From the NCBI RefSeq assembly GCF_000379085.1, contig NZ_KB905379.1:242677-306676 (forward strand): 64,000 bases of DNA, written 5' to 3'. Position numbers and translations under genes: made by a program. A model generated the notes under the pieces. It ran no database searches. It saw only the letters and a program-made list of their open reading frames with translations, and was not told the origin of the DNA. The DNA comes from Halomicrobium katesii DSM 19301 (GTDB taxonomy: Archaea; Halobacteriota; Halobacteria; Halobacteriales; Haloarculaceae). Numbering within the stretch: the stretch's first letter is position 1; every line of letters starts with the position of its first letter. Shown piece by piece: positions 28,597 through 50,888 of this stretch.

Positions 28597-29935
28597 TCAC
28601 TCCGCGCCCTCGGTATCCGCCGGCTGGTGCAATCCGACGACGACGCGGGTCCCGCCGAACCGACTCTCTTCGACGCGGAGGTCCCCACCGGAGCTACGGA
28701 CGATCCAGCGGGTCAGCCACAGTCCCATCCCGCTACTGTGTGATACGGACGGTTGTAGGAATTTACCGGTGAGCGTCTCCCCCGTGGCGACGCTCACCGG
28801 TAAGCAACTACAACTTTCCGTATGAGAGCGCGCTCTCGGTGTCCTGTGTCAGTACGTCTCGTTCGACGGCGGGGAGTCCGGGGCCGTCGTCCGCGATCGC
28901 CAGCGACACGTCGTGGGCTGGGTCCCGTGGATTCCGGGACACCTCGACGTGGACGCTGGGATCGTCGCCGTCGTTGTGCTCGACCGCGTTTTCGAGCAGG
29001 TTCTCGACCGCGTACGGGAGCAGCTCGTGACCCCTGACGACGGTCGCGGTCGGCCCCGTCGTCGTGACCGTTGCCGCCGGCCAGTCGAGTTCCAGTCGCT
29101 CTCTGTTGTCGTCCAGTATCGACGACAGCTCGAACGTGGTCCTGTCCTCCTCATCGCCACAGTCACGCAGCCGCTCGATGTGGCGTGCCGTCTCGCTGAG
29201 CTCGGTGACGTTGTCGATCCGGCGCTCGATCGCGTCGACGTGATCGCTTGCTTCGGGCACCGCCTCGGCGAGCGCTTCGAGGTGCCCCCGCATCACGGTC
29301 ACGTCGTTTCGGATGTTGTGTCGCAACACTCGATTGAGCACACTGAGCCGTTGCTCGCGCGTCTTCTGCTCGGTGATGTCGGTCGTGACGAACGTCGCGC
29401 CGGTGAACTGGCCGTCGCTGGTGTACAGCGGTCCCGCCCACACTCGAACGTCCAGTATCGCGCCGTCGCTGTCGCGGTGCCGCGTTTCGACGCCGGTGAA
29501 CTGTTCGCCCGCTTCGAGCCGGCGACACCACGACTCGACGGTTTCCGGCGTGTCGGCCACGGTCTGGGAGTAAGGCCGACCCACGACTTCGGACTCCGCC
29601 CAGCCGAACATCGACTCGGCACCCGCGTTCCAGAGCTGTATCGCGCCCTCGCTGTCGACGACCACGATCGCGACCGGTGCGACCTCGACGACGGAGACGA
29701 ACCGACTCACCAGATATTCGATCGTCGTGGTGAGGACCTCCATCTCCTCCTCGGTGGTCAGGTGTTCCCGGAGAACAGTGACGAGGTCGACGACGAGCTG
29801 ATCGACCAGCTCGTCGCGATCCGTCGAGGCGTTGGACTGGTACGTGCTCAACAAGAGCTGCTGGACCTCAGTGTAGCCCTCGGTTCCGAGGACGTTGAAC
29901 AGCGCGCCGACGAGTTGCTCTGCGCTCCGACCCAT
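28597..29935 (-). pseudogene. PAS-containing sensor histidine kinase split by a palindromic element
   Basis: The frame from the ATG at 29935 encodes an N-terminal helical region (1-85), a PAS domain (about 86-200), a dimerisation helix with the His box LNRVLRHNIRNDV (about 215), the N box ENLLENAVEHND and G1 DDGPGLP of the ATPase domain. It then stops at 28808 after SALSYGKL. The missing G2 end (SHSSGMGLWLTRWIVRSSGG, to TGA at 28597) continues beyond a 79-bp palindromic element. Removing the element and one flanking TCA restores an uninterrupted frame. The truncated protein lacks the G2 box and is probably inactive. A DtxR-like palindrome covers the start codon region. Confidence 0.85.
28744..28822. 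mobile_element. Palindromic MITE-like element, subfamily I, copy 1 (in kinase gene)
   Basis: The 79-bp element begins TACGGACGGTTGTAGG and ends CTACAACTTTCCGTA, with an internal stem ACCGGTGAGCGTC / GACGCTCACCGGT. It is flanked by TGA on both sides (28741-28743, 28823-28825), and the reconstructed uninterrupted gene has only one such triplet. That fits a 3-bp target duplication. It is 77 of 79 bases identical to the reverse complement of the copy at 49652-49730. Confidence 0.85.
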
Positions 29936-45435: not shown

Positions 45436-45515
45436 TACGGACGGTTGTAGGCGTTTACCCAGTCGACCGCACGATGGCGTGCGGTCGATCTGGTAAAGAC
45501 CTACAACTTTCCGTA
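45436..45515. mobile_element. Palindromic MITE-like element, subfamily I, copy 2
   Basis: The 80-bp element has outer ends TACGGACGGTTGTAGG / CCTACAACTTTCCGTA and an interior stem CAGTCGACCGCACG / CGTGCGGTCGATCTG. TGA stands on both sides (45433-45435, 45516-45518). It is 77/80 identical to the copy at 50809-50888 in the same orientation. It lies in the spacer after secY. Confidence 0.85.
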
Positions 45516-49651: not shown

Positions 49652-49730
49652 TACGGAAAGTTGTAGTTACTTACCGGTGAGCGTCGCCACGGGGTAGACG
49701 CTCACCGGTAAATTCCTACAACCGTCCGTA
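49652..49730. mobile_element. Palindromic MITE-like element, subfamily I, copy 3
   Basis: The 79-bp element is in inverted orientation relative to the copy in the kinase gene and matches its reverse complement at 77 of 79 bases. Its ends are TACGGAAAGTTGTAG / CTACAACCGTCCGTA. TGA flanks both sides (49649-49651, 49731-49733). It sits in the cbiA-cbiX spacer. Confidence 0.85.
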
Positions 49731-50808: not shown

Positions 50809-50888
50809 TACGGACGGTTGTAGGCGTCTACCCAGTCGACCGCACGACGGCGTGCGGTCGATCTGGTAAAGACCTACAACTCTCCGTA
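50809..50888. mobile_element. Palindromic MITE-like element, subfamily I, copy 4
   Basis: The 80-bp element is 77/80 identical to copy 2. Its flanking TGA triplets are 50806-50808, which is the cbiX stop codon itself, and 50889-50891. Ends and internal stem are as in copy 2. It may form the hairpin that ends cbiX transcription. Confidence 0.85.

Follow-up and report, generated by a model that had tools for sequence, protein, structure and literature searches.

A palindromic element splits a histidine kinase gene

A sensor histidine kinase gene of Halomicrobium is split by a 79-bp palindromic, non-autonomous element of subfamily B (positions 28744–28822 of the window, i.e., the whole 64-kb stretch of DNA analysed), which is likely a MITE moved in trans by an IS630-like DDE transposase, with duplication of T(G/C)A at the target and the kinase cut off as a result. 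The element inserts with a 3-bp target duplication, is present at some sites and absent at others in comparison with a close relative, and keeps its structure across the family. Disruption of the kinase is one ordinary consequence of mini-transposon activity; more interesting than the local event is the order-wide family, for which an IS630-like driver is plausible.

The truncated kinase (28808–29935, minus strand, 375 residues) contains PAS, HisKA and HATPase_c domains, the last up to profile position 58, and ends in ...TESALSYGKL*, of which the last codons and the stop are supplied by the element. The severed 3' part of the gene (28597–28743, minus strand) keeps an intact frame and carries the G2 motif HSSGMGLWLTRW and the C-terminus. 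The contig with this gene is the second of the genome (643,614 bp). Between them lies the element, an inverted repeat that forms a hairpin and has an identical copy elsewhere; its flanks read TGA at 28741–28743 (left copy of the target duplication) and TGA at 28823–28825 (right copy). Joining the sequence that ends at 28743 to that beginning at 28826 gives one open frame of 418 residues (...TESALSHSSGMGLWLTRW...). The earlier note held that an unbroken frame returns once the element and one triplet are deleted. Removal of these 82 bp does have this effect, with no gap relative to four orthologues; deletion of the 79-bp element alone, with the triplet kept twice, would leave one residue more than the orthologues have.

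These intact orthologues, from Haloferax larsenii (L121), Hfx. elongans (L122), Salinibaculum litoreum (L123) and Haloarcula salina (L124), lie outside the genus, and the allele comparison is made at 51–55% identity. All four cross the junction without a gap or interruption and align with the severed part through G2 to the C-terminus, including the downstream ~45–50 codons, which bears out the proposal that the kinase gene was intact before the insertion. A close orthologue was looked for in other genomes of the genus and none was found, so the gene is accessory, and this is the one point in favour of the reading that the kinase never had a tail in this lineage and that the downstream ORF is chance or a separate gene. 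We give that reading a negligible probability, since the joined flanks match the four orthologues through G2, no orthologue sharing the interruption was found among them, and the Pfam HATPase_c match climbs from 30.7 bits in the truncated kinase (profile positions 8–58 of 111) to 54.3 bits in the rejoined one (8–108 of 111).

The gain in profile coverage also supports the earlier note's statement that the ATPase domain has lost its G2 part. Stop codons within the element end the kinase after 375 residues, the G2 half of the domain is gone, and the truncated kinase is probably inactive. The junction had been placed across a missing G2 box; HSSGMGLW, in the severed tail, is the G2 motif itself, and the element sits just upstream of it. 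A second copy at 2021470–2021554 of contig C1 matches the kinase copy at 100% identity, which suggests that the insertion at 28744–28822 is recent.

The element duplicates a 3-bp target

This Halomicrobium genome (G000) has at least 83 copies of the element, and 83 distinct ones were read with their flanks. Both flanking triplets are identical in 76 of the 83 (TGA in 42, TCA in 34); among the other seven, one has TCA on one side and TGA on the other, and six have one base altered in one flank. The middle base of the triplet agrees between the two flanks in 76 copies and disagrees in one, and a variable base that is shared in this manner shows that the triplet is a duplicated 3-bp target and does not belong to the element as a constant part. 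The same match of the variable base in both flanks speaks against an IS605-derived PATE or REP element inserted next to a fixed oligonucleotide.

Comparison with the relative G001, covering 80 stretches (about 1.6 Mb), yields 27 cleanly comparable sites, 14 occupied and 13 empty. Every one of the 13 empty sites retains exactly one T(G/C)A triplet, within flanks that are mostly 96–100% identical (lowest 90%), and each may represent either a gain in G000 or a loss in G001. These empty sites rule out a TA duplication for the MITE. Together with the gap-free joined flanks of the kinase and the matching triplets across the genome, they agree with the earlier claim of insertion with a 3-bp duplication.

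A full-length hairpin

The arms of the palindrome in the kinase gene (28743–28780 and 28786–28823) are 82% complementary, and 28744–28822 folds as single-stranded DNA with –30.8 kcal/mol (z = –9.2 against 200 shuffles). The element has no gene of its own. Its ends are 15-bp terminal inverted repeats, TACGGANNGTTGTAG, and sequence blocks of the element include GTTGTAG (the middle of the end, positions 9–15) and TTTACCGG. Across loci the size is 66–81 bp; subfamilies vary in the core while the length stays at 77–81 bp. Pairing of the arms reaches 81% in the family, compared with 29–45% in slid controls, and 102 cells are altered on both sides, compared with 54 in shuffles. Such compensatory changes may reflect selection on the hairpin or template-switch correction between the arms. 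We note that, in alignment A2, columns 16–19 form a short, conserved and mostly unpaired patch inside the paired arms in nearly all subfamilies. A search of Rfam gave only a sub-threshold family match, which scored 17 bits where the gathering score is 180.

Copies in the genome and spread across haloarchaea

The window holds four copies. In addition to the kinase copy, they are a subfamily A copy of 80 bp at 45436–45515, whose orthologous site in G001 is empty (L025), an inverted subfamily B copy at 49652–49730, and a subfamily A copy at 50809–50888, which lies exactly at a TGA stop codon and is common to G001 (L058); all three are flanked by TGA/TGA. A strict pattern requiring both 15-bp ends finds 72 copies in the genome, each of which, being palindromic, matches on both strands. 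In G001, which lacks the IS630-like element described below (E<=1e-30), exact ends are about half as numerous as in G000 (45/45 versus 87/90), a point in favour of that element as the mobiliser. At L008 (1501–1662, G000:C1), two elements stand back to back with one TCA in common, the second inserted into the duplication of the first and missing from G001.

Of 392 haloarchaeal genomes from 95 sampled genera, 173 genomes in 52 genera contain relatives of the element according to a covariance model (R1), counted among the matches listed (up to 12 per genome), with both strands of the palindrome matching and E-values that are rough. Of the 392 genomes of the order, 35 contain the end motif TSATACGGANNGTTGTAG, and its reversed control gives no matches; among about 50 such loci that were read, almost all are palindromes of 66–81 bp, and the remainder are truncated or decayed copies. 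On plasmids, the real matches are confined to Halomicrobium (H. mukohataei pHmuk01 and Halomicrobium sp. LC1Hm), with a weak one in Salinirubellus; matches in Klebsiella and Raoultella plasmids are chance stretches of traI. Viral contigs gave 21 single end-motif matches, none of them an ~80-bp palindrome. A literature search, with ISfinder and most subscription papers outside its scope, returned no earlier description of the element.

Enrichment at TGA stop codons

The context around the duplicated triplet follows a symmetric preference, S-W-Y-T(G/C)A-R-W-S; the literature search found no paper on a PIF-type target motif. With stop-codon placement called by a purpose-made codon-model gene caller trained on Halomicrobium, 40 of the 72 noncoding copies (about 55%) sit exactly on a TGA stop codon, where 12.8% of noncoding T(G/C)A sites, or 13.6% after weighting by the motif, would be expected (p = 7e-17). 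Among all T(G/C)A sites, coding ones included, these stop codons make up near 3%. Copies are 4.3 times as dense on stops as on T(G/C)A sites up to 60 nt downstream of them (p = 1e-5). Of 44 copies examined in other genera, 23 lie on stops, though the codon model is the Halomicrobium-trained one. Since the duplication rebuilds TGA, insertion at a stop codon leaves the gene intact; the kinase insertion, being intragenic, does not.

Copies shared with G001 lie on stops more often than polymorphic ones (12 of 14 versus 6 of 13, p = 0.046), a difference that makes both an insertion preference and later selection likely contributors to the bias. Full IS copies with a 3-bp duplication lie on stops in only 2 of 17 cases, which favours selection.

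An IS630-like clade as candidate mobiliser

The mobiliser is probably an IS630-like clade, the best candidate on the evidence of end sequences and target duplications. Its first member (L339, nested) was found by a scan for pairs of T(G/C)A-TACGG...CCGTA-T(G/C)A. Full-length copies of 1142 bp are present in this genome (L343, L389, L390 and L392), and relatives occur in other genomes (L358, L372 and L395), with lengths of 1106–1150 bp and inverted-repeat ends. Two frames encode OrfA, with HTH domains (HTH_32/33/29), and OrfB, with a DDE_3 domain (8.8e-34). One derivative, L341 (9546–10303, G000:C1), is a non-autonomous intermediate of 758 bp, which has lost internal sequence, keeps both of its ends and is flanked by TCA/TCA. 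DDE_Tnp_1 insertion sequences were rejected as mobilisers (30 of 37 matches inspected, ends unrelated); at two loci, L351 near 8884 and L090 near 2570 (G000:C1), a DDE_Tnp_1 insertion sequence with ends CTCAGCTTTGAACGTT has apparently inserted into a copy of the palindromic element.

The right ends of the IS630-like elements have TACGG at positions 1–5 in common with the MITE, and those of L358 and L372 also share TTTACCGGTGAT at 19–30, at the same offset as in the MITE; TTTACC(G/A)G occurs at one offset in both the clade and the MITE. The right end of L358, TACGGTCGTGCGTTAGTTTTTACCGGTGAT, scores 15.4 with the MITE profile, where the background averages –48.7 (sd 12.4); of 748,800 positions just 27 reach this score, and most of them are MITE copies or remnants. 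The left ends, and the right ends of the genome's own full-length copies, score much lower. GTTGTAG (MITE positions 9–15) is absent from the IS630 ends found, and this gap, together with the lower-scoring ends, means that the MITE did not arise from these IS copies by simple deletion.

IS630 elements normally duplicate TA. Ends could be resolved in 22 IS copies, and the duplication is 3 bp long in 17 of them (T(G/C)A in 15, TTA in two) and TA in two; one of the last two, L380, belongs to a more distant, ~42%-identical haloarchaeal IS630 group. A non-TA duplication is unusual for IS630, and TAA and TAAA duplications are on record for Fot and Fot-like pogo elements (PMC7386202). One IS copy, L389 (1054–2195, G000:C1), is bounded by TGA at one end and TCA at the other. 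The sequences next to it lie far apart in G001, which suggests recombination between IS copies and means that L389 offers no direct IS empty site.

Under the preferred explanation, an IS630-like DDE transposase would act in trans on the ~80-bp hairpin element and would cut a T(G/C)A target in the context S-W-Y-T(G/C)A-R-W-S with a 3-nt stagger. Repair after insertion would leave one triplet on each side, and the copy at 28744–28822 would in this way have terminated the kinase at 375 residues. Tentatively, the account can be extended to an order-wide family of haloarchaeal hairpin mini-transposons, driven by an IS630 clade whose duplication changed from TA to T(G/C)A and entering genes preferentially at TGA stops, where the duplication rebuilds the stop and a dense genome is packed without breaking genes; the kinase would then be one miss. 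We regard this wider scheme as possible rather than probable.

Alternative explanations

The element could be a mobile mini-element whose mobiliser is another transposase, the IS630 resemblance being partial or convergent, and would then be akin to the Haloquadratum SMRs, themselves without a known mobiliser. No autonomous element with full 15-bp ends is present in the genome or among the matches read from the 392 genomes, those inspected being ~66–81 bp palindromes or truncated copies, and the MITE family (173 of 392 genomes) is far wider than the IS clade, close relatives of which occur in only about 16 of 293 genomes. G001 and G003 carry MITEs without this IS at E<=1e-30, so mobilisers besides the present IS, or lost ones, must exist. 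We nevertheless hold another transposase to be unlikely, because the IS630 clade agrees with the MITE in its 3-bp T-N-A duplication and in the offset of TTTACC(G/A)G, and because SMRs are reported to lack target duplications (PMC3119063). Movement as a single strand by a hairpin-recognising IS200/IS605 (Y1) transposase, as for a REP- or PATE-like element, would fit the whole-length hairpin, the compensatory changes and the conserved unpaired patch, yet is highly improbable, given that the middle bases of the flanks agree in 76 copies against one and that empty sites keep one triplet, as a staggered-cut duplication does; IS605-type elements make no duplication (PMC3119063).

A different possibility is that the hairpin persists because it serves the ends of genes, in mRNA 3'-end formation or termination, with mobility secondary. 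The conserved palindrome, the 40 of 72 noncoding copies exactly on TGA stops and the excess of shared copies on stops speak for such a role. We consider it rather improbable, as the element is mobile and also lies inside genes, the kinase included, and as a duplication that rebuilds the stop is harmless and explains retention without function.

Comparison with known systems

Short palindromes in high copy number, often near gene 3' ends, are known in bacteria as REP/BIME elements with RAYT transposases; unlike these, the present element has a 3-bp target duplication. It resembles MITEs in being short, without an ORF, bounded by terminal inverted repeats, flanked by a target duplication and present in high copy number, with ends that partly resemble a transposon in the same genome. 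It differs from them in being palindromic over its whole length, nearly fixed at 78–80 bp and found in 52 of 95 sampled genera, and in matching a parent transposon in part only. By its size, repeats and duplication the element qualifies as a MITE, and its link to a parent is partial. The candidate mobiliser, in turn, is like the IS630 family in its HTH and DDE_3 domains in two frames and its ends TA(C/G)NG...TTTACC, and unlike it in duplicating 3-bp T-N-A rather than TA (17/22 versus 2/22). If the IS630-like link is true, the length of the target duplication has changed in a group of which TA is the usual hallmark.

Among archaeal elements already described, the MITEs, PATEs and SMRs of Haloquadratum come closest (PMC3119063). 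The SMRs are likewise haloarchaeal, 80–110 bp long, non-coding, bounded by inverted repeats and without a clear parent, but SMR-A and SMR-B are reported to make no target duplications, and SMR-A to target IS605/PATE palindromes (PMC3119063). The 3-bp duplication made by the present element excludes its identity with either SMRs or PATEs.

One split gene thus opens the activity of mini-transposons across archaeal genomes to testing, through an element that is abundant, widespread, different between very close species and marked by an unusual T(G/C)A duplication that regenerates TGA stops. Annotators should be aware that a haloarchaeal protein with a truncated C-terminus and a last stretch such as ...YGKL* may be an artefact of element insertion. 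Finally, a 1116-bp cassette with MITE-like ends of ~22 bp and TGA/TGA flanks (L353, 1381–2501, G000:C2) has inserted precisely at the stop codon of what reads, by its sequence, as a fumarylacetoacetase-like gene. The cassette encodes a DUF7509 protein and a regulator of ArsR/MarR type without a transposase, and may be a gene-carrying version of the element.
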